Shown here piece by piece: positions 11,250-39,953 of a stretch of 47,449 nt of DNA. The DNA is from a virus. The first letter of the stretch is position 1. Every line of letters starts with the position of its first letter. The notes under the pieces were generated by a model. The model did not search any database and was not told the origin of the DNA. It saw only the letters and a program-made list of their open reading frames with translations. Location of the stretch: IMG/VR virus record IMGVR_UViG_3300049456_000119, positions 1 to 47,449 of that record. One strand, written 5' to 3'. The position numbers and the translations under genes are program-made.

Positions 11250-11256
11250 AGTTTAG
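11250..11256 (-). promoter_or_regulatory. CTAAACT element before the connector gene
   Basis: Reads GGCGCTAAACTAACAGGG on the minus strand, 14 bases before ATG 11235. One of seven CTAAACT copies in intergenic positions; TAAACT would serve as a -10 element. Confidence 0.5.
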
Positions 11257-11264
11257 CGCCTAAT

Positions 11265-11450
11265 TCACGTCGGAAAATCGAACCACGGAATCGTCGTCGT
11301 CCCTATGGGCCCGAGAACGTTCTGCTTATGCAAAGCACCCGAGAGGGCGAGCACAATGGCTGCCGTCGAGACGAGGCTCCACGTCGTGTTGATTTGCGCC
11401 GTCGTACTAACGACTACGGCAGCGGTCGAAACGAGAGATGCAACGGCCAT
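11265..11450 (-). CDS. Small hydrophobic repeat protein
   Basis: 61 residues from ATG 11450. Contains an internal duplication, SLVSTAAVVVSTTAQ and SLVSTAAIVLALSGA, and a charged-poor end GTTTIPWFDFPT. Could be a membrane protein or a small virion component in the capsid operon. No family recognised. Confidence 0.5.
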   Translation of the reverse strand: MAVASLVSTAAVVVSTTAQINTTWSLVSTAAIVLALSGALHKQNVLGPIGTTTIPWFDFPT

Positions 11451-11457
11451 GCGGCCG

Positions 11458-11703
11458 TCAGGTCGTTACGATGCGCAGTCCGTCCACGAGTTCGCGCGCG
11501 TCCGCCAGGGAGATCGGGAAAGTCGGTGCGGCTTGCGTTCCGCCGAAGCTTGACGCCTTGGAGATCGTGACGCCGGCCGAGGTGCAGCGCAGACGCCATC
11601 CGCCCTTGAGCGTCAACAATACGACGCCGTCGGTTGGGTCGGTGAGTTTGCCCGTCGTTGCGGTGACGACAGCGCACGTCGAAGTGAGTGCCGAGACAGT
11701 CAC
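11458..11703 (-). CDS. Hypothetical capsid-operon protein
   Basis: 81 residues from GTG 11703, two bases after the upstream stop codon. Beta-rich (TDPTDGVVLLTLKGGWRL) with a Thr/Ala-rich N-terminus that resembles the start of the neighbour at 11265-11450. Probably a minor structural protein. Confidence 0.55.
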   Translation of the reverse strand: MTVSALTSTCAVVTATTGKLTDPTDGVVLLTLKGGWRLRCTSAGVTISKASSFGGTQAAPTFPISLADARELVDGLRIVTT

Positions 11704-11704
11704 G

Positions 11705-12133
11705 TCACGCCACCGTGACGGTAAGGGCCCCGGTCAAGAACTCGACGGTGTCGCCCGATGCCACGGCGACGGGGGTAAACGCCCCGTAGACGAGCATGTT
11801 GCCTGCGGTCACCGCGTCGTAGAGCGCCCAGCCGGCGATCGTGCCCCAGCCTGCGCCCGTAGGCGAAGCGAAGACCTGATTTGCGCCGGTGGCCGCGGTC
11901 GCGGGGGCCGCGCCGCTTGGTGCGACGAGGGTCGTAACGCCCGGGGTTATCGAAAGACGGACGTAGCCATTGGTTGCGGGGACCTCGGTCGCTCCGCTGT
12001 CGACGCCGTTGATCGGCGCGACCGTGAAGAGCGCGAGGAAGGTGTGCGCGGGAACGGCCGGGAAGGTCGTTCCGCGAAACCAGTTGAGAAGAGCGTTCTC
12101 GAGGTACTGCGATGCGCCGGAGGTGACGGTCAT
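11705..12133 (-). CDS. Minor structural protein
   Basis: 142 residues (MTVTSGASQYLENALLNWFR). The sequence has the features of a recurrent phage virion family: FLALFTVAPINGVDSGATEV, then NGYVRLSI and GTIAGWALYDAVTAGNMLVYG. Typically found next to capsid genes; role unproven. Confidence 0.65.
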   Translation of the reverse strand: MTVTSGASQYLENALLNWFRGTTFPAVPAHTFLALFTVAPINGVDSGATEVPATNGYVRLSITPGVTTLVAPSGAAPATAATGANQVFASPTGAGWGTIAGWALYDAVTAGNMLVYGAFTPVAVASGDTVEFLTGALTVTVA

Positions 12134-12137
12134 TGGA

Positions 12138-13229
12138 TCAACCGGCCGCGCCGTCGAGCGCGTTCACGCTCAAGGGGTAGGGAACTCGGATTCCGCCGAC
12201 GCGCATATGGCAGGGGACCTTGAAGGCCATGTTGACCATTTGCGGGGGGAGCTGCTCGAACTCTTGCGGCACGATGAGGGAGAAGTTCTCCTCATTGCGC
12301 TCGCAGAGAAGGATGCGGGGGCCGACCGTACTGCCGTCCTGCTTTTTGCCCGCGTTCTCGAGCATCGTCGTCCAGTAGACCGCCTTCAACCAGGGGCTCT
12401 GCTTCTGCATGAATTGCAGAATCGAGTCGTCGGTGAACGTCGTCGATCGCGCCGTGGTCGCGAGAGTTGACCAAATCGTCAGCGGCAGGATCAGCGTGTC
12501 GGGCTGGTGAACGCCCTTGGAGGTCTGAATGACGGAGAGCTGAAGTGCGTTGAAGTCCGCGAGAATCGTGTTGACCGACGTGCCCGCGAGGGTCCAGTTG
12601 TTGGTCGTGGTCGTGACCGTCAGGCCCGGGAAGTTCGACATTCCGTACATCGCCAAGGGGTCATTGGTGTTTTGCGTCACCGGGGCGAACTGCAAGCCCT
12701 GCGAGGCGCCCGTGCCCGGAATCTGCTTCACGCCGTAGAAGGCGATCTGCTCGAATGCCTGTTCCATCGAGCGGCGCGCGGCGAGGGCCTTGCGGGTCTC
12801 GAGGGGAATGCCGGCCATGCGGGCGCGGCGGATGTCCTGGTACGAGTAGGTGTAGCTCGTGCCGATTGACAGGCAGCGGCTCGACCACTCGGACATCATC
12901 ACTTCGCTCGACGGCATATCCGCCGAGTAGTCGTGAATCAGGCCGGCGGCTCCGACGCGGTCGAATTGCTGCCAGGCGTAGATTTCCGTTGCGGGGTCCA
13001 GGCCGGTGAAGACCGGGAAGATCTGACGAGCCTTGAGCTCGGGGTATTTGACGTCGAAGGTTCGGCTCTCGACGGTCGTCAGCGCGCGAATGGCGAAGGC
13101 GGTTCCCGCTGCGGAGTCGTTGCGGTCCTGGCCCATGGCCTGGAGAACCTGCGGGGTAATGTAATCCGCCAGGTCGTATCGGTGACCCGAGCCGCCGGGC
13201 AGTTCACGAGAGAAAGAGAGGTCGATCAT
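12138..13229 (-). CDS. Major capsid protein, DUF2184-like
   Basis: 363 residues from ATG 13229, two bases after the decoration gene. The region FAIRALTTVESRTFDVKYPE and later YTYSYQDIRRARMAGIPLET is characteristic of DUF2184 capsid proteins of myophages (HK97 fold). The C-terminus MRVGGIRVPYPLSVNALDG is the expected A-domain end. It forms the icosahedral shell. No N-terminal delta-domain is fused; scaffold function sits in the protease gene upstream. Confidence 0.85.
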   Translation of the reverse strand: MIDLSFSRELPGGSGHRYDLADYITPQVLQAMGQDRNDSAAGTAFAIRALTTVESRTFDVKYPELKARQIFPVFTGLDPATEIYAWQQFDRVGAAGLIHDYSADMPSSEVMMSEWSSRCLSIGTSYTYSYQDIRRARMAGIPLETRKALAARRSMEQAFEQIAFYGVKQIPGTGASQGLQFAPVTQNTNDPLAMYGMSNFPGLTVTTTTNNWTLAGTSVNTILADFNALQLSVIQTSKGVHQPDTLILPLTIWSTLATTARSTTFTDDSILQFMQKQSPWLKAVYWTTMLENAGKKQDGSTVGPRILLCERNEENFSLIVPQEFEQLPPQMVNMAFKVPCHMRVGGIRVPYPLSVNALDGAAG

Positions 13230-13231
13230 GA

Positions 13232-13780
13232 TCAGGCAGCTCCCGGCAGATTCACGTCGAGAAGGACGATGTTGCCGCTGCCCGTCAGGGTCTGGCGGAC
13301 GCGGAACTGGTGACCCGCATTGGCGATTTCGGTACCGGCGCCCGAGCTGGTCGACGCGTCGGTGAACTTGCCGCGGTCTGCCGCGAGCGTGCTGGAGTGG
13401 TAGGCGTTGGGCATACCGAAGGCGGTCTGCGTAGTGCCCTTCCACTCGGCGTAAATCCGGCCGCGCATGAGCACGGGGACCATGTCGCCGATGTTGTATT
13501 GCGGGCCGCCGATGCCGTAGGCGGTGATGCTCGTCGAGCCGCTCTGCTCGCGAGCAGTCACGAGGACCGACACACCCACTGGGGCGAATGTCGTCGAGGT
13601 CTGCTGGCATTGCTGAACCGACACGCCGTCCGTCGCCATTTCGACGGCGCGTCCCGGCTGAATCACCTCGTTCGCGGGGAACGAGACGATCTCGTTGTAG
13701 GCCATATCGGCCAACTGCCCGGGCATTGCGAATGCCGGGAACTGATTGACCGTTTGCTGGCCCTGAATGACGGCTGTCAT
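13232..13780 (-). CDS. Capsid decoration / cement protein
   Basis: 182 residues (MTAVIQGQQTVNQFPAFAMP). MAYNEIVSFPANEVIQPGRAV and GDMVPVLMRGRIYAEW are typical of phage structural cement (DUF2190-like) proteins that sit on the capsid surface. Between protease/scaffold and major capsid genes, the normal place. Confidence 0.7.
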   Translation of the reverse strand: MTAVIQGQQTVNQFPAFAMPGQLADMAYNEIVSFPANEVIQPGRAVEMATDGVSVQQCQQTSTTFAPVGVSVLVTAREQSGSTSITAYGIGGPQYNIGDMVPVLMRGRIYAEWKGTTQTAFGMPNAYHSSTLAADRGKFTDASTSSGAGTEIANAGHQFRVRQTLTGSGNIVLLDVNLPGAA

Positions 13781-14847
13781 GCGCTCACCTTGAGTTCACC
13801 GGAGTTGCGCCAAGCGTTTTGGCTGTCCGCGAGATGCTTCGTGTAGAGGTCCGTGTATTTGGGGATCACGACTGCGTCAGCGCGGTCGCCCGCGACCGGC
13901 GCCGCGACGACTGCCGCGAGCGAGGGGTGCGGCTGCGAGGCGTACACGGCGAGAATCGTGTCGACGGTCTCGGCGCCGAGGCTGTCCACGCGGGCCGCGA
14001 GGTCCGGGGTGCGCTTGGCGACGATTGCCCGCTTGATGTCGAGGGTCGATTTGCCGGCCGTGTCGACGCCCGCGGCTTTCGCCGTGGCAACGATTGCGGT
14101 TCGCTCTTCGACGAGCGCGTCGAGTCGCTCCGGGGAGACTTGCGCGACCGCGACTGCGAGATCCGCATTGGCCTTCGCGAGAGCGGCCGTCAGAGCGGGC
14201 ACCTCCGCGGCGTCAGTGCGGGATTTCGCCAGTTCGCCAGTCAACGCGGTGACTTGTGCTTGGAGGGCTTCTAGATCCACATTCGAGTTTAGCGACGCCG
14301 CGATCTCATCCCCTGCGGAGTCGAGTCGAAGGGAGCAATCCTGACCGCCGCGGGGCGCTTCTCCCATAAGGAGGGCGACGTGATTCCCGCGAATATTTCG
14401 CTGGACTCCGTCATACGGCTCTCCTTCGGGCGTAATGCCGGGGGTCGGGTCGTAATCGACGCGATATCCGCAAGAGAGACTATGCGCTTTTCGCGCCAGC
14501 ACGTTCTTTACTGACGTCTCGTCTCGGACGTAGACCTCAGAGACCGCGAAACCCGCATCCTCGCGAACGTTCTCGCCAAGGTGCCCGATTGCGTTCCCTT
14601 TCCAGGTCGCCGACGTCACTTTGCGGCCGGCCGGATGATTCAGCGTGACAGTAGAGGAGGCGAAGCTCGCGAGGGATGCCGGGGCGAATACTTCGCTCGG
14701 GGGGCGGTATTCGCGGCGCGCGGTGCCGTCGGGATTCTGATACACGAAAATCCCGGGTCGCGTGAGCTGCCCAACGACTTTGATGGAGCCGTCCGGCAAT
14801 TGCTGAATTGCGGAAGCGTCGAGGCGGAAGTCGGTAAACCGAAGCAC
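13777..14847 (-). CDS. Prohead protease fused to scaffold (DUF2213-like)
   Basis: 356 residues from GTG 14847, only five bases after CTAAACT, so the mRNA may be leaderless. The N-terminal ~170 residues are a DUF2213-type maturation protease with conserved TLNHP (His71) and HSLSCGY (Ser125) as the likely catalytic pair. Residues about 189-240 form a long Ala/Leu/Glu coiled coil (LEALQAQVTALTGELAKS), the scaffold part, with a C-terminal capsid-binding tail. It guides shell assembly, then cleaves itself and partners. Confidence 0.8.
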   Translation of the reverse strand: MLRFTDFRLDASAIQQLPDGSIKVVGQLTRPGIFVYQNPDGTARREYRPPSEVFAPASLASFASSTVTLNHPAGRKVTSATWKGNAIGHLGENVREDAGFAVSEVYVRDETSVKNVLARKAHSLSCGYRVDYDPTPGITPEGEPYDGVQRNIRGNHVALLMGEAPRGGQDCSLRLDSAGDEIAASLNSNVDLEALQAQVTALTGELAKSRTDAAEVPALTAALAKANADLAVAVAQVSPERLDALVEERTAIVATAKAAGVDTAGKSTLDIKRAIVAKRTPDLAARVDSLGAETVDTILAVYASQPHPSLAAVVAAPVAGDRADAVVIPKYTDLYTKHLADSQNAWRNSGELKVSA

Positions 14848-14852
14848 AAGAG

Positions 14853-14881
14853 AGTTTAGGGCGATGCGTCCCCACTAAACT
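14853..14881. promoter_or_regulatory. Divergent CTAAACT pair between capsid and tail operons
   Basis: AGTTTAG at 14853-14859 (CTAAACT read on the minus strand) and CTAAACT at 14875-14881 (plus) point away from each other over 15 bp. They sit 5 bases before GTG 14847 and 21 bases before ATG 14903. The 55-bp gap is all the space available for two promoters, so these are the best candidates for both. Confidence 0.6.
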
Positions 14882-14902
14882 CCGTGAGAGGGTTTTTGCC
14901 CC

Positions 14903-16225
14903 ATGCCGATCGCGGACGTAGTCAATATTAGTATTTCGGTAAGCGGGGCCGGCCCGACGGGCGCAGGCTTCGGCGAGCCGATGATTGCTGCGTACCACAC
15001 GCACTACACGGATCGCGTGCGCGAGTATTCCTCTCTCGCGGGCATGGTCACGGACGGATTTGCGGTTACGGATCTGGCATATCTCGCCGCCTCGAATATC
15101 TTCGGCCAGACGCCTTCGCCCCCCTTCGTGAAGGTCGGCCGTCGCGCGACGCCGCTTGCGCAGGTCATCCACCTCACCTGTCTTTCGGTGAGCGCGCTCG
15201 ACACCTACGTCTTCCAGCTCCGATCGCCTGGCGGTTCGTGGAGCGTCGTCACCGTCGCCTCGACGGGAGTCGTCGCAACGGACGTCGCCACGATCAATAC
15301 GGCCGTTACCGCGCTCAGCATCACGGGACTGACCTGCACGCACAATGCGACGGACGTCATTTTGACGATGGCTACCGGCAAGTGGATCGACGTCAAGCCT
15401 GATGTCGTCTCTCACATGACGCTGGCGGATACGACCGCCGACGGCGGCGCGGCCCTCGCGGCCGACCTCGCGGCGATCCTCGCGGCGGATAGCAACTGGT
15501 ACGGCCTGCTTCTCGATACGCAGTCCCCGGCGGAAATCGCCGAGGCTGCCGTCTTCGCCGAGGCGAACAAGAAACTCTTCATTTGGAATTGCTCGGACTC
15601 CGCCATCGCGAACGCCGGGAGCACGACCGACATCGCGTATACGGAAAAGACCCTCGCGCATGCGCGCAGCGCCGGCCTCTTCGCGCAAACGCAGCTCCTC
15701 TGTTACTCGGCAGCGGCCTGGATGGGGCGCTTGTTCCCGACCGTCGCCGGCACGGAGAACTGGGCATTCAAGACCTTGTCGGGCGTGCCGGTCGACGCCC
15801 TCACGGACACGCAAGTTCACGCGGTCGAGAACAAGAACGCCTCGGTTTACACCGCGCTCTTCGGTCTCAATCTGACGCAGTTCGGCAAGCAGCCGGGCGG
15901 GCAGTGGATCGACGTCACGCGCGGGACCGACAACCTCACGAACGACATGGCGGTCGCCATCCTCGCTCTTCAGGCGAATAGCCTCCGCGTCCCTTACACG
16001 GACCTCGGCATAGACATGTACCGCTCGCAAATCACGGGCGTCCTCGCGTCGTACCAGGCGCGCGGGTTCCTCGCGCTGACGCCGGCCTTCTTCGTCTCTC
16101 TCCCGACGGCAGCGTCCGCGGGCGCCACGAACCGTGCGCTCCGCAACCTGCCGCTCGTCTCGTTCACCGCGCAGCTCGCGGGCGCAATCAATAGCACCAC
16201 GATCACTGGAGTCCTCGTCACATGA
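14903..16225 (+). CDS. Tail sheath protein, DUF3383-like
   Basis: 440 residues, starting MPIADVVNISISVSGAGPTG, the conserved opening of DUF3383 sheath proteins, followed by a variable inserted domain and a conserved C-terminal half (NASVYTALFGLNLTQFGKQP, YRSQITGVLASYQARGFLAL). The sheath contracts to drive the tube through the envelope. First gene of the plus-strand tail operon; the next gene overlaps by four bases. Confidence 0.85.
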   Translation: MPIADVVNISISVSGAGPTGAGFGEPMIAAYHTHYTDRVREYSSLAGMVTDGFAVTDLAYLAASNIFGQTPSPPFVKVGRRATPLAQVIHLTCLSVSALDTYVFQLRSPGGSWSVVTVASTGVVATDVATINTAVTALSITGLTCTHNATDVILTMATGKWIDVKPDVVSHMTLADTTADGGAALAADLAAILAADSNWYGLLLDTQSPAEIAEAAVFAEANKKLFIWNCSDSAIANAGSTTDIAYTEKTLAHARSAGLFAQTQLLCYSAAAWMGRLFPTVAGTENWAFKTLSGVPVDALTDTQVHAVENKNASVYTALFGLNLTQFGKQPGGQWIDVTRGTDNLTNDMAVAILALQANSLRVPYTDLGIDMYRSQITGVLASYQARGFLALTPAFFVSLPTAASAGATNRALRNLPLVSFTAQLAGAINSTTITGVLVT

Positions 16226-16656
16226 GCCTGAAACGATACGACGCGGCTCAGGTGACGATGGTCTTCATGGGCCTCCCCATTACTTCGGGTTTCGCTGAAG
16301 GCGAGTTCCTCACGATCGAGCAGGAAGCGCCGACGTACGAGACCGTGGTCGGCACCGACGGTGAAGTAAGCCGCAGCCGCACCAACAACCAGCATGCGAC
16401 CATCAAAGTCAAGCTGGCCCGGACGAGCGACGGAAACACTCTTTTCGGCGCATTGCATACGGCCGGCATCCTGGCGGCCAACGGCGCCGATATCGGACCG
16501 ATGCTCGTGCGCGACCGCGTGAGCGGTACGTGCGCGTACACGGCATCCAAGTGCTGGATTGCCGCGCCCCCGGCCGTGAGCTTCGACAATAAGGTCACTA
16601 TGGCCGAGTGGACCTTGGAATGTGCGGACCTGGTTCGGATCGACACCGGGTCGTGA
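16222..16656 (+). CDS. Tail tube protein, DUF3277-like
   Basis: 144 residues (MSLKRYDAAQVTMVFMGLPI). Follows the sheath with ATGA overlap. ITSGFAEGEFLTIEQEAPTY and the end MAEWTLECADLVRIDTGS fit the DUF3277 tube family. It forms the inner tube hexamers inside the sheath. Confidence 0.8.
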   Translation: MSLKRYDAAQVTMVFMGLPITSGFAEGEFLTIEQEAPTYETVVGTDGEVSRSRTNNQHATIKVKLARTSDGNTLFGALHTAGILAANGADIGPMLVRDRVSGTCAYTASKCWIAAPPAVSFDNKVTMAEWTLECADLVRIDTGS

Positions 16657-16710
16657 TCGTCTGATGACGGGCTGATTTGCGTGGACAGGCCCTAATAATT
16701 GAGGCTTACC

Positions 16711-17199
16711 ATGCGCGAAACAGTTCAGAAGACGATCGGCGATACGACCTACCACATCACGACGCTTGGCACGAAGGACGCGCGCCGAGTCGGTCGCCGG
16801 CTCGCGCGGGTCTTCGGGGTTTCGGCCGAGGCCGACCAGAAGGCCGCCAAGTTCTTCGAGGTCCTGACGGATGAGGAGCTCGACTTCCTTTGCGACACGT
16901 TCGCGAAGATGACGCAGATTTCGCCGGCCGATTCCGCTATTCACCCCGCGACCGGGCAGCCGACCGTCATGTTCGCGCTCGCTGCGAAGATGGAGGAGCA
17001 CTTCTCCGGGCACATGGGCCTTCTCATGCAATGGCTCAAGGCGTGCGTGGAGGTCAATTACGGTAATTTTTTAGGCGAGTTGGGGCCCGAGCTCCAATCG
17101 CTCATGGAGACGTTGGCGGCGAAGAGCGTGGAGACCGAGCTGTCGACGGCCCCGACTGGTTCATTTGGCGCCTCGTCCATGCGCGCCTCGGGAGCCTGA
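16711..17199 (+). CDS. Tail assembly chaperone, short form
   Basis: 162 residues from ATG 16711 (GAGG ten bases upstream; the in-frame TTG at 16699 lacks a site). Lies between tube and tape measure, where tailed phages encode a pair of chaperones for tape measure protein. MRETVQKTIGDTTYHITTLG and the helical body fit the G-like product. The reading continues past a TTTTTTA heptamer in the zero frame to a stop at 17199; a fraction of ribosomes is expected to shift. Confidence 0.75.
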   Translation: MRETVQKTIGDTTYHITTLGTKDARRVGRRLARVFGVSAEADQKAAKFFEVLTDEELDFLCDTFAKMTQISPADSAIHPATGQPTVMFALAAKMEEHFSGHMGLLMQWLKACVEVNYGNFLGELGPELQSLMETLAAKSVETELSTAPTGSFGASSMRASGA

Positions 17200-17300
17200 A
17201 CGAAGTAGCGAACGAGTGGTGTCTCGACGACGCGCTCGACGCGCACGAGATACTGGATCAAATCGAAGCGGCGGAAAAAGAAGCGAGGCAAAGTAAGTAA
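16711..17300 (+). CDS. Tail assembly chaperone, -1 frameshift long form
   Basis: Zero frame 16711-17073 (121 codons), then -1 frame from 17073 to TAA at 17298-17300, for 196 residues in all. The extension ends DWFIWRLVHARLGSLNEVAN and LDDALDAHEILDQIEAAEKE, a clear coding sequence with the Trp-Arg-Leu pattern of GT-type extensions and no start codon of its own. The -1 frame has a TAA at 17064-17066 immediately before the slippery run, so the shift must occur at 17067 or later. Confidence 0.75.
17067..17073 (+). other. Programmed -1 ribosomal frameshift site
   Basis: T TTT TTA in the zero frame of the chaperone gene (Asn-Phe-Leu codons AAT TTT TTA). It is a classic X XXY YYZ heptamer, a rare T run in this GC-rich genome, and lies exactly where the -1 frame opens. 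Confidence 0.75.
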
Positions 17301-17302
17301 AG

Positions 17303-18880: not shown

Positions 18881-18881
18881 G

Positions 18882-21003: not shown

Positions 21004-21004
21004 T

Positions 21005-21730: not shown

Positions 21731-21763
21731 TTGACAATTAGCTGACACGAGCTAATTAGTAAG
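21731..21763 (+). promoter_or_regulatory. CTAATTAGTAAG-class promoter before the integration operon
   Basis: TTGACA (21731-21736), 16 bp, then TAATTA (21753-21758) with an imperfect dyad AATTAGCT-GACACG-AGCTAATT. The 3' part GCTAATTAGTAAG runs straight into ATG 21764. One of four similar elements; this copy also has a consensus sigma-70 -35 box. A binding dyad over the promoter suggests repression. Confidence 0.6.
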
Positions 21764-22504: not shown

Positions 22505-22857
22505 CCCCCGCTGACGTCGCCGCTCGTCTCGGGTGCTCACGCGCGTACGCCTACGTGGTCGTGCGCTCGCTCCCGCACGTGCGCGTCGGCAGGCTCCTTC
22601 GCGTGACGGAAGAGGTCGTGTGTGCTTACCTAGAGCGATGCGAACGCCTACCCCCTATACCCTTGTCCGCGTCGATGGTTCGCCCTTCTGGTACGTGTAC
22701 TTCCTCGACCGGGCCGGGTCTCGCGTCCGGAAGTCGACGAAGGAGCACTCCAAAGAGCGCGCGCATGCAGTGGCTCGGGAACTCGAGCGACGGTACGGAG
22801 ATCCGACCTACAACGCCGCGAACGCAACGACCCTCTCGGATGCCGCCCGCAGCCTGA
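22486..22857 (+). CDS. Excisionase-like HTH protein
   Basis: From GTG 22486 the frame reads LLTPADVAARLGCSRAYAYV then SLPHVRVGRLLRVTEEVVCA, a winged HTH of the excisionase/MerR type (HTH_17). Excisionases bend att DNA and favour excision. After about 55 residues the frame runs inside the integrase gene and gives low-complexity sequence, so the functional protein may be the first half only, or a -1 shift could join it to the integrase frame. Start is uncertain because no strong ribosome site is visible. Confidence 0.6.
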   Translation: MPVSLLTPADVAARLGCSRAYAYVVVRSLPHVRVGRLLRVTEEVVCAYLERCERLPPIPLSASMVRPSGTCTSSTGPGLASGSRRRSTPKSARMQWLGNSSDGTEIRPTTPRTQRPSRMPPAA

Positions 22858-23666
22858 AGGAGCACCTTGAAAACACCGGACGCTCTTCTGAAACCCGAGC
22901 CTTCTACGGCGTCAAGCTCGGCCATGTGGGCCGCGTTCTCGGAACGGATTGCCGGCTTGCGGACGTCACGGCGCCCGCCGTGGACGGGTACATCCGATTA
23001 CGTCGAGCTGAAGGTGCGGCGCGCTACACGATCGCCAAAGAGCTGACCGCGCTGCGGATGCTCCTGAAGGTCGCGCGTCGCCGCGGGGAGTTCGACCGGG
23101 AAGTCTCCCAGGTCATGCCCGTAGGCTTCGCGACCGGTTATAAGCCGCGCATGCGGCGGTTGACCCGCGGGGACGCGTGGGCCTTGATCGCCATGCTCCC
23201 GGAGCCCTGCGGTCGGTATGCGGCCTTCGTGTGCGCGACGACGGCGCGGGACTCCGCGGTCGGCCGCGCCATCGGTTCAGACCGCTTGGCCACGGGCATC
23301 CGCGTGCGCGATGCGAAGACCCGTGCCGCTGCGCGCGTGGTACCCTTCACCGCCGTGACGGCGGCGTTCGCCGACTTCGCCTTCCTGAACGTCGCTCCGG
23401 ACGCCGCCGTCGCACCCGGGCTCGGGAGCGTGCGCCACGCGTTCGATCGCGCGTGCGCGCGCCTCGGCTTCCCGCACACGAGCCCCAACGACCTCCGGCG
23501 GTCCGTGGCCCACTGGCTACTAGAGGAGAGCGTACCGCGCGACGTGGTCGCGGCGTTCATGGGGCACACGTCGACCAAGATGCTTGACTCCGTCTACGGG
23601 AAGCTCGATCCGACGCAGATCGGCGAAGCTATTGCGCGGGCCGTTTCGATGCGCGCGCCAGAGTGA
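22638..23666 (+). CDS. int: Tyrosine integrase
   Basis: 342 residues from ATG 22638. N-terminal arm-type sequence (FWYVYFLDRAGSRVRKSTKE) and a SAM-like core-binding domain (about 55-150) precede the catalytic domain. Arg box TTARDSAVGRA, Lys in DAKTRAAARVVPF, box II DLRRSVAHWLL, GHTS and nucleophile Tyr in MLDSVYGKL are present. The first residue of H-x-x-R is Asn (PNDLRR), a tolerated but unusual change. The attP-like tRNA segment lies 250 bp downstream. It integrates the phage into the host chromosome, probably at tRNA-Phe. Confidence 0.85.
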   Translation: MRTPTPYTLVRVDGSPFWYVYFLDRAGSRVRKSTKEHSKERAHAVARELERRYGDPTYNAANATTLSDAARSLKEHLENTGRSSETRAFYGVKLGHVGRVLGTDCRLADVTAPAVDGYIRLRRAEGAARYTIAKELTALRMLLKVARRRGEFDREVSQVMPVGFATGYKPRMRRLTRGDAWALIAMLPEPCGRYAAFVCATTARDSAVGRAIGSDRLATGIRVRDAKTRAAARVVPFTAVTAAFADFAFLNVAPDAAVAPGLGSVRHAFDRACARLGFPHTSPNDLRRSVAHWLLEESVPRDVVAAFMGHTSTKMLDSVYGKLDPTQIGEAIARAVSMRAPE

Positions 23667-23814: not shown

Positions 23815-23915
23815 GTGCTCAAGCGTAGCAGATCGAGTTGGGACGCATTTGGGAAAACCGTCCAGAATACTGTTCACGCAGTGGACGCAGTGCACGACGA
23901 GACCCCGGAAATTCG

Positions 23916-23962
23916 TGCGCAGGGACGGAATCGAACCGCCGACACGGGGATTTTCAGTCCCG
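23916..23962 (-). other. attP: Probable attP core: 3' half of tRNA-Phe(GAA)
   Basis: Minus strand, 23962 to 23916, reads as the anticodon arm (GGGA-CTGAAAA-TCCC, anticodon GAA), variable loop CGTGTC, T arm (GGCGG-TTCGATT-CCGTC) and 3' acceptor strand of tRNA-Phe. The 5' half is absent, so it is not a gene. Phages whose integrase targets a tRNA carry just such a fragment to rebuild the gene on integration. Location beside int supports it. Confidence 0.8.
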
Positions 23963-24065
23963 ACAAAACCTCCGGGAAAGTGCGTAACAGCAGAGGTTTT
24001 GTAACGGAGTTGGGATGAAGCCGGGCGTTCCGGTGCAGGTCTTTCTAGGAAACCTCCCCGCGACA

Positions 24066-24072
24066 CTAAACT
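24066..24072 (+). promoter_or_regulatory. CTAAACT element before the baseplate operon
   Basis: GACACTAAACTACCGG on the plus strand, 14 bases before ATG 24087. Just upstream is TTTCTAGGAA (about 24042-24051), which also occurs near the divergent copies at 29.87 kb. Confidence 0.55.
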
Positions 24073-24086
24073 ACCGGAAGAACCGC

Positions 24087-24479
24087 ATGAGTGCTTTTGC
24101 GCAAACAACGACCGGGGACCTCGACATTTCCACGGGGAATCTCGTCGTTCGGAAGGACATCCCGCAGGTCACCGCGTGGAAGCTCAGCAACCTATTCGGT
24201 CTTTTCAAGGGCGAGTGGTTCCGTGATTCGCGCGTAGGCGTGCCGTACTTCCAGTACGTGCTCGTGTGGAACCCGAACCTGAAGGTCATCGGGTCGATTT
24301 TCAAGCGGGTCTGCATGGCGGCACCCGGCGTCCAAGGGGTACTGAACATGGGGCTGAACTTCCTGCCGCAAACGCGGTCGCTCAACGTAGCGATCACGGT
24401 CCAGACGAATGAGGGCGCGGTCCTCGTCGGCGGCCCGGGTAACCCCTTCATCATCGCGCAAGTCGCGCCGGGGGTTTGA
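24087..24479 (+). CDS. gp25-like baseplate protein
   Basis: 130 residues from ATG 24087, 14 bases after CTAAACT; the upstream part of the frame passes through the attP segment and is not used. MSAFAQTTTGDLDISTGNLV and ALKVIG-type central part, ending GNPFIIAQVAPGV, fit small gp25/W-like wedge proteins encoded just before the J/gp6 protein. Assignment rests mainly on order. Confidence 0.6.
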   Translation: MSAFAQTTTGDLDISTGNLVVRKDIPQVTAWKLSNLFGLFKGEWFRDSRVGVPYFQYVLVWNPNLKVIGSIFKRVCMAAPGVQGVLNMGLNFLPQTRSLNVAITVQTNEGAVLVGGPGNPFIIAQVAPGV

Positions 24480-25663: not shown

Positions 25664-25664
25664 T

Positions 25665-26282
25665 ATGCCCGTACCCGTCGTCGATAACGCCCACGTGGCC
25701 GAGGGCGTCGGACTCCTGACGTCCCGTTACAAGAACGCGGCGGTAGTCAAAGGAATTACGACGGCGCTAATGCTTCGCTTCCAAGAGGCGGAGGCGCAGC
25801 TCTGGTCCCTTATCAACGGCGTGCAACTCTCCAACCACCCGATGGCCGGCGGCCCGTGGAGCATCTTGGACCAATTGGCGTCGCTTGTCGGCGTCCCCGG
25901 GGGTCGGAAGGGCCTCTCCGACGCCGACCTGGTCACGGCAATTCGGTTGCAAATCAAGGTGAATCGCAGTCACGGTCTCGCCGAGGACGTCATTCAGGTT
26001 TTGAAACTTGCGACGGGAAATAGTCAATTGTATCTTGACGCCCCGCCCGCAGGCTTTATTGTGTCGGTGTTGGACATCTCGGACGCCTTTGCGGCGATTC
26101 TCGCGTCGATCGTGACGCAGGTTCGTAGCGCGGGGACTTCCGGCACCCTCATCTACACAACCTGGAGCCCCGGCAATGACCTCATACTCGATTCGACCAC
26201 TGGCCACATTCCGGCCGCTAGCCATCTTGGCTCTACTACTGACGGCACTGGCGGGCTGCTTGCTACCGTCCTCCCCGTCTGA
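25665..26282 (+). CDS. Baseplate wedge / tail protein I-like
   Basis: 205 residues. MLRFQEAEAQLWSLINGVQL, LASLVGVPGGRKGLSDADLV and LQIKVNRSHGLAEDVIQVLK match the DUF2612-type proteins that follow J in simple myophage baseplates and connect to the fibre. The last ~100 bases overlap an alternative upstream start of the fibre gene. Confidence 0.65.
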   Translation: MPVPVVDNAHVAEGVGLLTSRYKNAAVVKGITTALMLRFQEAEAQLWSLINGVQLSNHPMAGGPWSILDQLASLVGVPGGRKGLSDADLVTAIRLQIKVNRSHGLAEDVIQVLKLATGNSQLYLDAPPAGFIVSVLDISDAFAAILASIVTQVRSAGTSGTLIYTTWSPGNDLILDSTTGHIPAASHLGSTTDGTGGLLATVLPV

Positions 26283-26298
26283 CGTTACCGAGGAAACT

Positions 26299-27702
26299 AT
26301 GTCGCGACCTGTCATTTTCAATCAGCCGTTCGTTTACAACTGGTCGACCGAGGCGAACTTCCCCTCGGGGGCATATGCCGGGACGCCAACGAAGGTTACC
26401 CCGACCGGGGACATCTTCTTCCCCGACCAACCGCTTGCAGCGCAACCGCTGAACTACGTCCTGAGCCAGTTCGGTCCGGTCGACATGGCGAACCAGAATT
26501 GGAACATCGCGAACCTGACCGGGATCTTGAACTGGACCGGCAACGATATCGCGCTTCAGTGGTACCCCACGCAGCTTGCGGCGACGATGGACACCGGACT
26601 GTTCGCGGGCGACACCAACAACCACGGCCTTCAGGCGGTGTGTTGGAACCCGTTCGACCAGGTCTGGCAAGGCCTCTTCAGCGTCATCGATAGCGGCGGC
26701 CCCACCCCGCGTATGCGCGTCGCCATCAACAGCGGCACCGACACGACCTGGACCGCCGATGTGCATTGCAACCAGGACGCGAGCGCCTTCGCCTTGACGG
26801 CCGGCACCTCGGACATGATTCACGATCCCTACTTCGAACACGTCACGTACTGGGCGGTATCGCTCGGGCCGGGGAACGGGTTCGAAGTCTTCATGAGCAA
26901 CAACAACACGGGGACCACGAGCATCCTCACGGTCGGCGGTTTTACCGTGCAGAACATCACGCTCTCGTTCTTTGGTTTGTCCGGATACCTGATCGTCGGT
27001 GTGACGGACGCGGCGGGGACGAACACGGCGCTCTACTCGTCGGACGACCTCGGGGTGACTTGGGGCCACACGACGTACGCAACGCAGACGGGCAAGTGGT
27101 ACTTCCAGCCCGTCGACTTTGCCGGGACTGCCTACATCGCCGCGATTGCGTCGGGCCTCGGTGGCCAGACGGCGCTCCTACATCTTTCGACTACCGGGGC
27201 GCCCGGCAGTTGGTCGGTCGGCTCTTCGGTCGGCGGAGCGGGGGAGAACGTACACGGGCTTGCGCGCTTCAACCAACCCATCTCTAGCACGGCGTTCGCT
27301 CAGTACCTCGCCACTTCCGTCGGCCATACCGTGCAAGTCACCGGGAACGGGGCCTCCTGGACGACGCAGCACACATCGGTCAATGCCGACTGCCTCGACG
27401 ATATTCGAGGGGCGGGCACCATTCTGGTAGCGAGCCTCGACATCACGAAGCTGACCTACAACTTCTCTCGAGGCGGCGTCGACGACATGGCGCTCGTCTT
27501 TAGCCTGGATAGCGGCGTCACTTGGAGCTGGAGCCCGAACGTGCTTCGACCGGCGACGGCTGCAGTCCGTCGGCTCGTCGACAACTCTACGTTGGATGCG
27601 ACCGGGACCGTGATTGTCCCAGCGACTCAGCTTGGCATGTACCACACGGGGGCTCTGCGACTTTCGATGGCGCAGGGAGCTTCGATGGCGGCCGGGTTCT
27701 AA
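26299..27702 (+). CDS. Receptor-binding beta-propeller protein
   Basis: 467 residues from ATG 26299, chosen for the GAGGAAACT ribosome site. N-terminal ~50 residues (FNQPFVYNWSTEANFPSGAY) look like a baseplate-attachment domain. The rest is a beta-propeller with sialidase-type Asp boxes: SSDDLGVTW and SLDSGVTW. It probably recognises or trims surface sugars. An in-frame ATG at 26176 would add 41 residues including a good lipoprotein signal (LTALAGC) but overlaps the previous gene by 107 bases. Confidence 0.65.
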   Translation: MSRPVIFNQPFVYNWSTEANFPSGAYAGTPTKVTPTGDIFFPDQPLAAQPLNYVLSQFGPVDMANQNWNIANLTGILNWTGNDIALQWYPTQLAATMDTGLFAGDTNNHGLQAVCWNPFDQVWQGLFSVIDSGGPTPRMRVAINSGTDTTWTADVHCNQDASAFALTAGTSDMIHDPYFEHVTYWAVSLGPGNGFEVFMSNNNTGTTSILTVGGFTVQNITLSFFGLSGYLIVGVTDAAGTNTALYSSDDLGVTWGHTTYATQTGKWYFQPVDFAGTAYIAAIASGLGGQTALLHLSTTGAPGSWSVGSSVGGAGENVHGLARFNQPISSTAFAQYLATSVGHTVQVTGNGASWTTQHTSVNADCLDDIRGAGTILVASLDITKLTYNFSRGGVDDMALVFSLDSGVTWSWSPNVLRPATAAVRRLVDNSTLDATGTVIVPATQLGMYHTGALRLSMAQGASMAAGF

Positions 27703-28166
27703 GCGGCCTTCGGGCGCCGCGCTTGCCGCATAAACGGCTGACGTAGCGCCCACTTGCCGAGGCCGATAGCGTCCACGGCGTTGTGGGCGTATCCGCCCTT
27801 GTAGCGCGCGAGGGCGGCGGCCTCCGGGGCGGACAGGGACGCGCGAATGCGGGCGACCATGATGTCGCCGTCGATCGTCCCCTTCCAATCGCGCGGGGCG
27901 ACGAGTTCGACGAGCGTCCCGGCGAAGCGCTCTTCGTACCGGCCTGCGACGCGGGCGAGCTTCAAGATGCTACCAATCGTAGCCTGGTCAAACACGCGGG
28001 TCGGGCATTCGATGACAACGAGGTCGGGGCGCACGGGAAACGAGTTGTCATCCGGTGCACACACGAACGCCTCCATGAGTCGCCAGGCGCCTTCGCTGAA
28101 GGCAAAGTACGCCATGCCGGTATGCACGCCGGGGTCGATGGCGAGCAGGGACGTGATCGCGTTCAC
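27699..28166 (-). CDS. RuvC-like Holliday junction resolvase
   Basis: 155 residues from GTG 28166 (GTGA overlap). RNase H-fold with acidic residues Asp11 (AIDPGVHTG), Glu53 (LVVIECP) and Asp132 (HNAVDAIGLG), the RuvC pattern. Resolves branched DNA before packaging or in recombination. The far longer open frame upstream is an out-of-frame reading of the pentapeptide gene. Confidence 0.8.
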   Translation of the reverse strand: MNAITSLLAIDPGVHTGMAYFAFSEGAWRLMEAFVCAPDDNSFPVRPDLVVIECPTRVFDQATIGSILKLARVAGRYEERFAGTLVELVAPRDWKGTIDGDIMVARIRASLSAPEAAALARYKGGYAHNAVDAIGLGKWALRQPFMRQARRPKAA

Positions 28167-28243
28167 CGTTCCGCCCGCACGTTGAAGTAGAGCGAGATCA
28201 GGATGAGAAGTAACCACGCGCCCCAGAGATAGACGTCGATCAC
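28163..28243 (-). CDS. 26-residue membrane protein
   Basis: GTG 28243 overlaps the pentapeptide stop, and its TGA overlaps the RuvC start. Sequence MIDVYLWGAWLLLILISLYF then NVRAER: one membrane helix with a basic end. Exactly fills the gap between the two genes. Confidence 0.6.
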   Translation of the reverse strand: MIDVYLWGAWLLLILISLYFNVRAER

Positions 28244-29175
28244 GGCGACACCGGACGGGGCAAGTGCCTACCATCGAAGAGCGCAACGAAGGTCGCGACA
28301 AGGGCGCGCTTCGTTTCGGGGGCATCCGCTTGACGGTGTATATCCAGTCCCGCGGCCATGGGGCAATCGGTCCACGAGTGAGATCCCCACGCGGCGATAG
28401 CGCGGGAGGTTGCCTCGGAGGTATCGCAGAGTCCCGCGAGCGGATCGGATTGCCACTGGGCAAGGGTGCGACCGTCGGGGAGATTGGCGTTCTGGAAATC
28501 GGCGCCCTGGAGATTGGCGCCCGTGAGATTGGCGCCACGGAAATCGGCGCCCTGGAGATCGGCGTCCTGGAGATTGGCGCCCTGGAGATTGGCGCCCCGG
28601 AGATTGGCGCCCCGGAGATTGGCGCCACGGAGACTGGCGCCCGTGAGATCGGCGTTCTGGAGACCGGCGCCCCCGAGATCGTCGTTCTGGAGATGGGTGT
28701 ACCGTAGATTGGCGTCCTGGAGATTGGCGCCCGTGAGATTGGCGCCACGGAGATCGGCGTCCTGGAGATCGGCGTTCTGGAGATAGGCGTCCTGGAAATC
28801 GGCGCCCGTGAGATGGGCGCCTCGGAGATCGGCGCCCTGGAGATTGGCGCCACGGAGATGGGTGTCCCGTAGATTGGCGCCACGGAGATCGGCGTCCTGG
28901 AAATTGGCGTCCTGGAAATTGGCTCCCCGGAGACGGGCGCCCGTGAGACGGGCGCCCGTGAGATCGGCGTACCGTAGATCGGCGTCCTGGAGATCGGCGC
29001 CCTGGAGATCGACGCCCTGGAGAGTGGCGCCCTGGAGATGGGCGCCCTGGAGACGGGCGCCCCCGAGATCGGCGCCCCGGAGATTGGCTCCCTGGAGATA
29101 GGCGCCCTGGAGATTGTCCCCGGGGTGCATGAATACGATTTCGTGAGTGAGGCGATGTTTGATGGTTACGGGCAT
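28240..29175 (-). CDS. Pentapeptide-repeat protein with C-terminal domain
   Basis: 311 residues from ATG 29175. N-terminal MPVTIKHRLTHEIVFMHPGD, then about 43 A(D/N)LQ/R-type repeats (residues ~20-230) and a non-repeat C-terminal domain (RTLAQWQSDPLAGLCDTSEA to the end). The repeat part forms a long quadrilateral beta-helix, in some family members a DNA mimic that protects or inhibits gyrase. Controlled by a CTAATTAGTAAG element touching its start codon and cotranscribed with a RuvC-like nuclease, which favours a DNA-related role. Confidence 0.85.
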   Translation of the reverse strand: MPVTIKHRLTHEIVFMHPGDNLQGAYLQGANLRGADLGGARLQGAHLQGATLQGVDLQGADLQDADLRYADLTGARLTGARLRGANFQDANFQDADLRGANLRDTHLRGANLQGADLRGAHLTGADFQDAYLQNADLQDADLRGANLTGANLQDANLRYTHLQNDDLGGAGLQNADLTGASLRGANLRGANLRGANLQGANLQDADLQGADFRGANLTGANLQGADFQNANLPDGRTLAQWQSDPLAGLCDTSEATSRAIAAWGSHSWTDCPMAAGLDIHRQADAPETKRALVATFVALFDGRHLPRPVSP

Positions 29176-29206
29176 CTTACTAATTAGCCCGTGTCCGGGC
29201 TTATTC
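29176..29206 (-). promoter_or_regulatory. CTAATTAGTAAG-class element before the pentapeptide operon
   Basis: Reads AATAAGCCCGGACACGGG then CTAATTAGTAAG on the minus strand and runs into ATG 29175. The 13 bases GCTAATTAGTAAG are identical to the 21.7-kb copy. The outer arm lies within the stop codon region of the upstream gene. Confidence 0.6.
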
Positions 29207-29641
29207 GTCCCCGCCGAACTCTACCGCCAGCTTGCGCCACTGCTCCCGTTGCTCTTGCGTCATCTTCTCGAAGGCGATCGTCGGTGCGATAGCGTGTGCG
29301 ATGTTCTCGGTCGCTTGGCCGGTATCGAGGCGGTAATTCTTCGAGACGAACTCGGCCATCTTCAGGATCGTCGCCGGGTCGAGAGGCCCGATCGAGTTCT
29401 CGAAATCCTTGCCTTGCGAGATTGTCAAGTATTTCTGAAGTTGCGTGAGTACCAGTTCGGTCCCGACCGACAACATCTCGGCGTGCATTTGCCGGGCCTT
29501 TGCGACAGCCAGGCGGGCCGCTGCTTCGGCTTCGCGGGCGAGGGCTAGCTTGGCCGCCGCTGCGCGTTCAGACACCGCCTCGGGGCGCTGGTGAGGCGGC
29601 AGCCAGGGGACGATTGCGCGATCGTCAGGCGTCGGGGCCAT
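29201..29641 (-). CDS. Possible small terminase subunit
   Basis: 146 residues from ATG 29641. Helical: an Ala-rich coiled coil (LAREAEAAARLAVAKARQMH) and ATILKMAEFVSKNYRLDTGQ, which is the tone of phage small terminase oligomerisation regions. Overlaps the HTH gene upstream by 17 bases in another frame. Position before portal supports a packaging role; the large subunit is 5 kb away. Confidence 0.5.
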   Translation of the reverse strand: MAPTPDDRAIVPWLPPHQRPEAVSERAAAAKLALAREAEAAARLAVAKARQMHAEMLSVGTELVLTQLQKYLTISQGKDFENSIGPLDPATILKMAEFVSKNYRLDTGQATENIAHAIAPTIAFEKMTQEQREQWRKLAVEFGGDE

Positions 29642-29861
29642 GCGTCTTGCCCGTGAGGACGTTGGAAACCGTTTTCACACACACGCCCATCTCTCGGGCG
29701 ATCTGATCGTAAGACGGCTGCGGCTTGCGCGCGCGCATCTCGCGAATTTGCTGCGCGCGGATCGCTGCGTATGTTCGCGCAATCGCCTGCCCGAACGTCT
29801 CGGGCTCCGCGAGGGGGCGAGCGGGGGCGGACGGGGGGAGTTCCTTCGTTTGCTTGGCCAC
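29625..29861 (-). CDS. HTH DNA-binding protein
   Basis: 78 residues from GTG 29861, five bases after CTAAACT on the minus strand. C-terminal PSYDQIAREMGVCVKTVSNV plus LTGKTHG is a clear helix-turn-helix. It may be the DNA-binding half of the packaging recognition unit together with the next gene, or a regulator. A ATG two bases upstream is in another frame. Confidence 0.65.
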   Translation of the reverse strand: MAKQTKELPPSAPARPLAEPETFGQAIARTYAAIRAQQIREMRARKPQPSYDQIAREMGVCVKTVSNVLTGKTHGPDA

Positions 29862-29866
29862 ATCTT

Positions 29867-29909
29867 AGTTTAGCTTCCTAGAAAGAAGGGGACGTCCCGG
29901 CACTAAACT
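29867..29909. promoter_or_regulatory. Divergent CTAAACT pair between HTH and portal genes
   Basis: AGTTTAG at 29867-29873 (minus) and CTAAACT at 29903-29909 (plus), pointing apart. Each lies five bases from a GTG start (29861 and 29915). If TAAACT is the -10 box, both messages would begin at or next to the start codon. TTCCTAGAAAG between them resembles the sequence before the 24.07-kb copy in reverse. Confidence 0.6.
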
Positions 29910-29914
29910 CATAG

Positions 29915-31831
29915 GTGGCGGAACCCCAAGAAAAAGCAATTCCGATTTTACCGCAGCGCATAATGGACGTCGGGGGCCCGCAAGGCGCTACGTCGCTGGG
30001 CCCCGCGGGCCCGGAGCTCCCCGCCCGCGCGCACTACATGTCCGGCGTTCGCGCCGACAGTCTTTTCGACGGCTTAATTGGCGGGTGCGGCGGCAACATG
30101 ACCGGCGGCGGATGGTCCAACCCCGTGACGGGGATGGGAACGTTCGGCCGCGACAAGGTGATGCAGGGGAGCTATGCCGAGTCCTACCGCATCGACGACT
30201 CGCAACTCGCCGCGTTGTACAACGGCAACGACATCGCGCAACGCATCATCAACACCAAGCCGCGCGAGATGTTCCGGCGCGGGTGGTTGCTTGTGGTGCC
30301 GCAAGCGGACGACGAGACGGGCGACCCGACATCGGGTTCCGCCAACGGTTCCGGACCCGGTACCGAAAGCGGCCCGGCCGCGCCGGGGTCTCCGCTCGTC
30401 GGCCCCCTTGGCGACCCGCCCGACGGCGTGAAACCGCCCGTCGCCCCCGCGGGCGAGAAGGCGAATATCTCGGATCCGATGGGGACGACGCTCGCGGTAA
30501 CGCCGCCGAGCAACGTGCAACCGAAGGTGCCGTCCGCGGTCAAGCCGCCGCAGAACACGCCCGTGCAAGGCAAGAAGTCGAAGGGCTCCGCCCCGACCGA
30601 CCAACCCGCGGGCGCGGCACTTGCGAAGAACATTGAAGCCTACGCGACGCGGCTCGGGCACAAGGAGCGCTTTCTCGAGGGGGCCATCTTCGGGCGCGCG
30701 TACGGCGGAGGGTTCGTCATCATGGGGATCGACGACGGCCTCGACGTGGCCGCGCCGGTCGACGAAGCAAACATCCGGTCGATCGCTTACCTCACGTGGA
30801 TCGACCGCCGGTTCATCTTCGCGTCGACATGGTACGCGGAGATTGGCCCCAAGTACGGGCAGGTCGAGACGTGGGAAATCATCAACCCCTTCGGCGGCCA
30901 GAGCAACACACGCATCCACGAGTCGCGCGTGATCCGCTTCGACGGCGCGCCGGTCGACTTCCTCATGCGGCGGCGACTGCTCGGGTGGACGCTTTCGGTC
31001 TTACAGGCCCCGTACGACACGATGCGGCAGTTCGATCAGTCGTTCCAGTCGATCGCGAACCTCATGGCCGACATGAGCCAAGCGGTGATGACGATCAACG
31101 GCTTGATGCAAATGATCTCCAACGATCAGGCGACGCTCAAGACGCGCATGCAAATGGTCGACATGTCCCGCAGCTCGGGGCGTATGGTCTACCTCGACGC
31201 GGAAAATGAGAAGTTCGAGCGCGTCGCTACGCCACTGACCGGGGTCGCGGACACGCTCGAGATGCAAATGCTCCGGCTCGCGAGCGCGGCCGAGGTGCCT
31301 GTCGCCATCCTCTTCGGGCGCGAGCCGTCGGGCCTGAACGCCACGGGGGACGCCGACTTCCGGCGCTTCTACGATACGATCGCGGGCGAGCAGCGCACGA
31401 TTCTGGAGCCGAAGCTTCTTCGGTTGTACACGTTGATCTGTCTCGCGAAGGACTCGCCAACGGGCGGCGTGATGCCCGCGCGCGGCCTCGAGTTCGTCTG
31501 GCACAAGCTCTACGAACCGAGCGAGCTCGAACAGTCGACCATCCGCTTCAACATGGCGCAGGCGGACGACCTGTACATCAACAACGGTACATTGCTACCA
31601 TCCGAAGTGGCACTATCGCGCTTCCGCAACGGCGACCTGCACCTCGACACCGAGATTCAGACCAACCTACGTACGGCGGCGTTGACTTCGGTACAGCTTG
31701 CCCCCGAAGGCTCGGCAAAGGCCGATGCCGAAGCGCAGCAAGCCAAGGACCTGATCAAAGCGAAGGGTGATGCGTCGCCAGGCGCGGCGTCGGGCAAGCC
31801 GGGCGCGAAGCCTCCGGCGAAAGCGGCGTAA
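29915..31831 (+). CDS. Portal protein (DUF1073-type)
   Basis: 638 residues from GTG 29915. Contains LAALYNGNDIAQRIINTKPR, a disordered Pro/Gly/Lys-rich insert (about 130-235), then GRAYGGGFVIMGIDDGLDVA, IHESRVIRFDGAPVDFLMRR and VAILFGREPSGLNATGDADF, all typical of DUF1073 phage portals. Dodecameric DNA gateway at one capsid vertex. DUF1073 portals are sometimes auto-named after Acb1 anti-CBASS proteins; the whole length and position here mean portal. The long insert is unusual. Confidence 0.85.
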   Translation: MAEPQEKAIPILPQRIMDVGGPQGATSLGPAGPELPARAHYMSGVRADSLFDGLIGGCGGNMTGGGWSNPVTGMGTFGRDKVMQGSYAESYRIDDSQLAALYNGNDIAQRIINTKPREMFRRGWLLVVPQADDETGDPTSGSANGSGPGTESGPAAPGSPLVGPLGDPPDGVKPPVAPAGEKANISDPMGTTLAVTPPSNVQPKVPSAVKPPQNTPVQGKKSKGSAPTDQPAGAALAKNIEAYATRLGHKERFLEGAIFGRAYGGGFVIMGIDDGLDVAAPVDEANIRSIAYLTWIDRRFIFASTWYAEIGPKYGQVETWEIINPFGGQSNTRIHESRVIRFDGAPVDFLMRRRLLGWTLSVLQAPYDTMRQFDQSFQSIANLMADMSQAVMTINGLMQMISNDQATLKTRMQMVDMSRSSGRMVYLDAENEKFERVATPLTGVADTLEMQMLRLASAAEVPVAILFGREPSGLNATGDADFRRFYDTIAGEQRTILEPKLLRLYTLICLAKDSPTGGVMPARGLEFVWHKLYEPSELEQSTIRFNMAQADDLYINNGTLLPSEVALSRFRNGDLHLDTEIQTNLRTAALTSVQLAPEGSAKADAEAQQAKDLIKAKGDASPGAASGKPGAKPPAKAA

Positions 31832-31845
31832 CACTAGCGCCCGAG

Positions 31846-32358
31846 TCACTTGTTCACCCGGTACCATGCGCGCACGTCGCGCGGCGTAGGACCGAGGGGC
31901 GCGGACAAGTCGATCTTCCAGTACATGAGCGCCCCGGGGTGCTTGTAATCGTCGTCCAGACCCATCGCGTGCCCTAGCTCGTGCGCCGCGACCTCCGTGA
32001 GTTCGTCCCCGACCATCACGTCGACGGCTAGGCCGATGAACAGGTGGCCGTCCGGTTGAGGGTTATATAGGCCGACCACGTTATGGTGCTTGCCAGTTCG
32101 GCGCTCGAACTCCGCACTCAGGTCCGCTTCGGTCCCCGGGAGGATGCGGATTAGCTTGTTCTCTCCGCGATGTACGACAAAAAAGAACGCAAGGCCGGGG
32201 ATGGCGTCCTCCCACAAATGCGCGCCGCGCTCGACCTGGCGACGCTGCGCCGGAGTAAAGTCTGCACTAATTTCTACATCGTAGACCCGATGAAGGTCGG
32301 GACCGGCGTTCCAGGCCGACCACCCGAACATCGCGGCGTAAATTAGCTGCCGGAGCAC
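31846..32358 (-). CDS. Metzincin-like zinc protease
   Basis: 170 residues from GTG 32358. Residues 126-136 HELGHAMGLDD give His126-Glu127-x-x-His130 and Asp136 as third ligand, as in snapalysin-type enzymes, and ALMY (Met145) gives the Met-turn. The N-terminus LRQLIYAAMFGWSAWNAG is a short hydrophobic stretch, possibly a signal or anchor. Likely degrades host envelope or extracellular protein, or processes virion proteins. Converges with the portal gene. Confidence 0.8.
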   Translation of the reverse strand: MLRQLIYAAMFGWSAWNAGPDLHRVYDVEISADFTPAQRRQVERGAHLWEDAIPGLAFFFVVHRGENKLIRILPGTEADLSAEFERRTGKHHNVVGLYNPQPDGHLFIGLAVDVMVGDELTEVAAHELGHAMGLDDDYKHPGALMYWKIDLSAPLGPTPRDVRAWYRVNK

Positions 32359-32510
32359 GGGACCGGGCGCTGCGTTGGGAGAGTGCCTTCTTCGTCAATC
32401 GACGGGGGCAGCGGGTCGGGCAAGTCGTGCGCCGCGATAACGAGCCGAATTGCTCCCTCGACGTTCATCGTCTCCACCATGGCGTAAAGGGCGGCGGGCG
32501 AAATTACCAT
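32343..32510 (-). CDS. Small protein upstream of the metzincin
   Basis: 55 residues from ATG 32510. MVISPAALYAMVETMNVEGA then LVIAAHDLPDPLPPSIDEEG. The last 16 bases overlap the protease start. A CTAAACT element lies 31 bases before its start. Function unknown; could act as inhibitor or leader of the protease, which is inference. Confidence 0.55.
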   Translation of the reverse strand: MVISPAALYAMVETMNVEGAIRLVIAAHDLPDPLPPSIDEEGTLPTQRPVPCSGS

Positions 32511-32540
32511 TCTTATTTATTAGTGTGAGTCCGGTAATTA

Positions 32541-32547
32541 AGTTTAG
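32541..32547 (-). promoter_or_regulatory. CTAAACT element before the metzincin pair
   Basis: Reads GGCACTAAACTTAATTACCG on the minus strand, in a 123-bp intergenic gap. Confidence 0.5.
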
Positions 32548-39949: not shown

Positions 39950-39953
39950 CGCG

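Follow-up and report, generated by a model that had tools for sequence, protein, structure and literature searches.

Late promoters of phage T4 depend on a -10-like element. T4 gp55 docks at the position of sigma domain 2 and lacks a domain 4, and late transcription additionally involves the sliding clamp gp45 and the coactivator gp33, which occupies the docking place of sigma domain 4 (PMC2988020). In phiEco32, gp36 is a sigma factor without homology to region 4; its promoters consist of a single element, tAATGTAtA, with no -35, start transcription 6-8 base pairs (bp) downstream of that element and serve middle and late genes (PMC8948821). Leaderless genes of bacterial hosts carry a -10 motif, TANNNT, about 11-12 nucleotides (nt) before the start codon and have no ribosome-binding site (PMC3160421, PMC12340547), and the authors of the AR9 study describe phage transcripts as often leaderless (PMC5312081). 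Here, we analyse the heptamer CTAAACT in the 47,449-base IMG/VR record IMGVR_UViG_3300049456_000119, taken at its whole length (the window), which derives from an uncultivated virus of bacteria. In our view, CTAAACT quite probably serves as the -10 element of late promoters that are specific to the phage and read by a phage-encoded sigma factor, giving mRNAs that are leaderless or short-leadered.

CTAAACT occurs nine times in the window against 1.43 expected, a count reached in none of 100 dinucleotide-preserving shuffles, and the extended form CRCTAAACT is present seven times where 0.28 are expected, in line with the shared flank described in an initial annotation of this DNA. The seven sites listed there are all real, with correct coordinates and strands, and each is oriented towards the gene that it precedes; both divergent arrangements, 14853/14875 and 29867/29903, are likewise present. 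The list was incomplete, as it overlooked 5108(-) and 14286(-), and since both of these lie within coding sequence, the claim that the motif always stands in a gap does not extend to all nine sites. Profile searches recovered the proposed targets, namely the maturation protease, sheath, baseplate wedge, head/packaging protein, portal, helix-turn-helix (HTH) protein and metzincin (Table 1). Genes in the window were called with a simple codon model. Site 24066 falls inside the longest open reading frame (ORF) at its locus, which starts at 24015; as homologues align to that ORF only from about residue 18-25 onwards, we place the true start of the baseplate wedge gene at 24087. A shared TTTCTAGGAA near 24066 and 29867 was also considered and is not significant.

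Table 1 Motif sites and associated genes in the window (aa, amino acids)
Feature	Coordinates	Strand	Remarks
CTAAACT	5108..5114	-	25 nt before ATG 5082; within the end of gene 5083-5271; weakest site of all
CTAAACT	11250..11256	-	14 nt before ATG 11235 (PHROG 302 head/packaging protein)
CTAAACT	14286..14292	-	within protease gene; 5 nt before in-frame GTG 14280 (codon 190)
CTAAACT	14853..14859	-	5 nt before GTG 14847 (head maturation protease); divergent pair with 14875
CTAAACT	14875..14881	+	21 nt before ATG 14903 (tail sheath)
CTAAACT	24066..24072	+	14 nt before ATG 24087 (baseplate wedge)
CTAAACT	29867..29873	-	5 nt before GTG 29861 (HTH protein)
CTAAACT	29903..29909	+	5 nt before GTG 29915 (portal)
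CTAAACT	32541..32547	-	30 nt before ATG 32510 (55-aa ORF, then metzincin 31846-32358)
Phage sigma70-family factor	36106..36798	-	regions 2-3, without region 4.2; proposed promoter reader
Head maturation protease	13777..14847	-	with C-terminal scaffold part
Predicted nested scaffold ORF	13777..14280	-	C-terminal part of protease gene, from GTG 14280
Major capsid protein	12138..13229	-	in protease operon
Tail sheath	14903..16225	+	
Portal protein	29915..31831	+	
Small HTH protein	29625..29861	-	weak PHROG matches to transcription regulators

The motif keeps a fixed distance to the start codon at many of these sites. Exactly 5 nt separate it from a GTG at 14286(-) and at 14853(-), 29867(-) and 29903(+), and at the latter three this GTG is the earliest start codon of the downstream ORF. 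Pooled over eight phages, and counting only ATG or GTG codons that open ORFs of 70 aa or more, RTG stands at exactly 5 nt in 22 of 51 CTAAAMT sites; for 313 permuted 7-mers, the corresponding figure is 23 of 2403 (binomial p ~5e-31, the sites being taken as independent despite the relatedness of the phages). Counted from the first T of TAAAMT, RTG lies 11 nt downstream at 22 of the 51 sites, which agrees with the spacing of TANNNT leaderless promoters. GTG makes up 19 of the 27 starts found at 5 nt, compared with 12 of 60 for the other genes of the window (p ~1e-5), a preference that might be expected if the same base were also the start of the transcript.

Relatives of this phage (G002, G004, G005, G006 and the L-numbered contigs) are IMG/VR contigs found via capsid, portal and sigma proteins; most are fragments, and their gene order is shared with the window. 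The motif is present in their orthologous gaps, mostly as CTAAAAT, ahead of the portal, HTH, protease, sheath, baseplate and metzincin genes. The protease and portal genes of G002 begin as CTAAAAT-tagcc-GTG and CTAAAAT-aggag-GTG, the portal gene of G005 as CTAAAAT-aggcc-GTG and the HTH gene of L004 as CTAAAAT-cgatc-GTG, while the metzincin homologue of G002 has CTAAAAT 5 nt ahead of GTG. Baseplate wedge orthologues carry CTAAAAT or CTAAACC 5-10 nt ahead of their start, and the G006 orthologue of the PHROG 302 gene carries CTAAACT 12 nt ahead of its ATG. No such motif was found upstream of the portal gene in L043 and L044, whose portals are the most distant. Spelling is largely consistent within a phage and differs between phages: the window holds nine copies of CTAAACT and none of CTAAAAT, and G002 holds eleven of CTAAAAT and none of CTAAACT. 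Further spellings are CTAAACC in L035, CTAAAAC in L036 and CTAGACT/CTAGAGT in L037, and G006 is mixed. Start-linked copies are absent from the replication regions of the window, G002 and G006; three motif copies within the replication regions of G002 and G006 have no start nearby. CTAAAAT also occurs in a similar context at 7530(+) of G004 and 14904(-) of G005, with no start codon within 30 nt.

Beyond this group, no close relative at the DNA level was found among GenBank phages for positions 1-25000 of the window. No capsid or portal protein match to GenBank phages reaches 60% identity, and none of the matches listed exceeds 33%. Prophage relatives in named bacteria were sought in two genome scans, using portal and capsid profiles, and none was found.

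The promoter-like unit appears to consist of a single element. An alignment of 50 sites displays a preferred G just ahead of the motif and information in the start codon; no informative block is seen near -35, and the hypothesis of a -35 element was dropped. In L009 and L042, two divergent genes lie only 24 bp apart, the gap being made up of 5 nt, the palindrome ATTTTAGCTAAAAT and another 5 nt, so that any -35 would fall in the coding sequence of the neighbouring gene. The distance between inverted copies is variable, the two being adjacent in L009 and 15 nt apart in the window.

The sigma gene, 36106-36798(-), sits in a leftward cluster with polymerase and helicase genes. Its product matches Pfam Sigma70_r2 above the cut-off, the family profile matches regions 2-3 of SigA/RpoD (E 1.5e-11), and residues 1-97 of the predicted model align to domain 2 of E. 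coli sigma70 (Z ~12, root mean square deviation 2.0). Sigma70_r4 found no match up to E 1 in four sigma homologues, and six homologues all stop shortly past the start of region 4.1, of which a short 4.1-like remnant is kept. A sigma factor without the -35-reading domain suits promoters without a -35. A homologue is present in every relative whose contig spans the locus. Identity between phages is 30-40% for sigma versus 63-76% for the adjacent phosphoesterase and 50-60% for the terminase. Searching viral contigs with the single sigma sequence of the window gave no match, and the sigma alignment gave nine loci; tblastn against phage records returned weak matches only, to other phage sigma factors. 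The protein is assigned to PHROG 351 only, with no match to the gp55 family, and the annotation of MW202816 lists no sigma factor. We regard the product of this gene as the likely reader of the CTAAACT promoters. The phosphoesterase gene itself, 36795-37583(-), adjoins the sigma gene and is among the best-conserved neighbours in every relative covering the locus.

The copy at 14286 lies within the protease gene. At the junction between the protease and scaffold parts, an in-frame ATG or GTG is found in all six phages compared, as expected of a nested gene. It is preceded by CTAAACT at 5 nt in the window and by CTAAAAT at 8 nt in G002. Weaker evidence comes from one-mismatch forms 6-13 nt before the junction start, CTACAAT in G004 and G005 and CTATACT in G006, and from a weaker CTACAAG at 5 nt in L002. 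The one-mismatch forms of G004, G005 and G006 stand in a different frame from the motifs of the window and G002, and conservation of the protein alone is therefore an insufficient explanation. In the simplest reading, site 14286 is probably an intragenic leaderless promoter for the nested scaffold. A nested scaffold is also known from lambda C/Nu3, which is read in frame from a start inside the protease gene.

The motif might instead be a leaderless -10 of the TANNNT type for the host housekeeping sigma, the phage sigma having some other job. TAAACT within CTAAACT does fit TANNNT, with its first T 11 nt ahead of the start codon, the position known from host leaderless genes (PMC3160421), and some high-G+C hosts have many leaderless genes (PMC3160421, PMC12340547). 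Zheng et al. found that the middle three TANNNT bases carry little information in high-G+C groups (PMC3160421); unlike those, the middle bases here hardly vary within a phage, but do so from one phage to another. Use of the host sigma is also at odds with the avoidance of replication genes by start-linked sites and with the presence of an own, fast-evolving sigma in each phage whose contig covers the locus, and we judge it unlikely.

Two further explanations would remove the motif from the core promoter altogether. A translation signal, that is, a non-Shine-Dalgarno ribosome site 5 nt before starts, would agree with a spacing suited to a ribosome-binding element and with the little Shine-Dalgarno sequence at these starts. 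It is made very improbable by the absence of the motif before nearly all operon-internal genes, by its position mostly at the beginnings of transcription units, both divergent pairs included, and by spacings of 14-30 nt at the other sites, which are unsuited to such a signal. To our knowledge, moreover, CTAAACT is not complementary to the usual 3' end of 16S rRNA. Were the motif an operator bound by a repressor or activator, for instance the HTH protein encoded at 29625-29861, this could account for the inverted pairs in divergent gaps and for the HTH gene among the targets. Against it stand the widely varying distance between inverted copies, where the spacing to the start codon is fixed, and the 24-bp gap of L009, which offers no space for a separate core promoter; we give the operator hardly any credence.

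Several points weigh against a late promoter read by the phage sigma. Five of the nine window sites depart from the 5-nt spacing, lying at 14 (11250 and 24066), 21 (14875), 25 (5108) and 30 nt (32541), and some sites in relatives, such as 5372 in G006 and 14904 in G005, have no start nearby. Confidence in the sigma model is moderate (mean predicted local distance difference test score, pLDDT, 70; predicted template modelling score, pTM, 0.43), and the link between sigma and motif is one of co-occurrence only. No sigma gene was found on the L035 and L036 contigs, with CTAAACC and CTAAAAC, respectively, both of which are fragments. The promoter and late-regulon interpretation put forward in the initial annotation is nevertheless supported by conservation of the motif in orthologous gaps, the fixed 5-nt spacing, the restriction of start-linked copies to regions other than the replication genes, the coherent drift in spelling and the placement of the sigma gene with replication genes. 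The evidence further supports a refined form of it, with a -10-only, mostly leaderless promoter at nine sites, 14286 being intragenic, and with the phage sigma as its probable reader. We infer initiation at the CTAAACT sites, as well as late timing, from sequence features.

Under this late-promoter interpretation, host-type promoters would presumably drive the leftward replication cluster, which includes the sigma gene; host sigma70-type promoters number 3 in the 32-47 kb part of the window, against 2.3 expected, a count that is uninformative on this point. The phage sigma, whose region 2 would read the -10 and which has no -35-reading region 4.2, would then recruit the host core RNA polymerase to CTAAACT without -35 contact. 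Transcripts would start about 6 nt past the element, on the first base of the start codon at several genes, and such mRNAs would therefore lack a leader or carry only a very short one. In the protease gene, the internal copy of this promoter would yield a separate mRNA for the nested scaffold. As a whole, we lean slightly towards the broader picture of small, contractile-tailed phages of one lineage whose late promoters have been cut down to a 7-bp element fused to the start codon, in which a 24-bp gap serves two divergent leaderless genes, one copy in the protease gene gives the scaffold its own mRNA, and a sigma without a -35 domain co-evolves with the motif into a private code for each phage.

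Other features of the window were noted alongside. A second repeated element, the palindromic GCTAATTAG(C/T), has 16 matches with at most one mismatch against 3.1 expected, at positions including 2282-2299, 21751-21760, 29179-29188, 39922-39950 and 43574-43583; it often stands right before ATG, with GGACA or TTGACA ahead, and may be an early promoter or operator. An integrase gene (PHROG 1; 22638-23666(+)) lies between tail and baseplate genes, with a ~66% identical homologue in the same place in G002. Two arrays of 15-nt period, 28240-29175(-) and 1-400, probably encode pentapeptide-repeat proteins, and G006 also holds several copies beside its sigma gene. The two metzincin-like proteases, 31846-32358(-) and 33178-33672(-), have a 29-nt stretch in common at 90% identity, and two places in G002 are homologous to them. 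A unit of ~106 nt is present in three tandem copies at 2514-2889, in a gene-poor stretch.

The system would offer a natural compact case in which sigma region 2 alone sets promoter specificity, with sigma and promoter changing in parallel across relatives, and the recognition code of sigma region 2.4 would become testable through swaps. It points, too, to an intragenic leaderless promoter as a possible means of expressing a capsid scaffold. The rule CTAAAMT, 5 nt, RTG could serve as a simple marker of late genes, and for the correction of start codons, in this uncultivated group.

Among described systems, phiEco32 gp36 appears to be the closest, and features of several known systems seem to be combined here. 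Both have a sigma without region 4 and one promoter element, and from the start codons 5 nt downstream we infer that transcripts of the window would likewise begin 6-8 bp past the element. The window differs from phiEco32 in its motif, in the fusion of the element to start codons of leaderless genes, in targets on either strand, including back-to-back pairs, in one intragenic copy, and in the type of phage, having contractile-tail genes. The T4 gp55 system follows a similar principle, with gp33 and the sliding clamp as further partners; no clamp or gp33 partner was noticed among the window genes searched, some small genes not having been searched. The TANNNT leaderless genes differ in being host genes with variable middle bases and host sigma factors. 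With lambda C/Nu3 the window shares a nested in-frame scaffold, and it differs in the promoter-like element just before the internal start, such that the scaffold may have its own mRNA. Relative to these systems, the leaderless, the 24-bp bidirectional and the nested promoter forms would be new.

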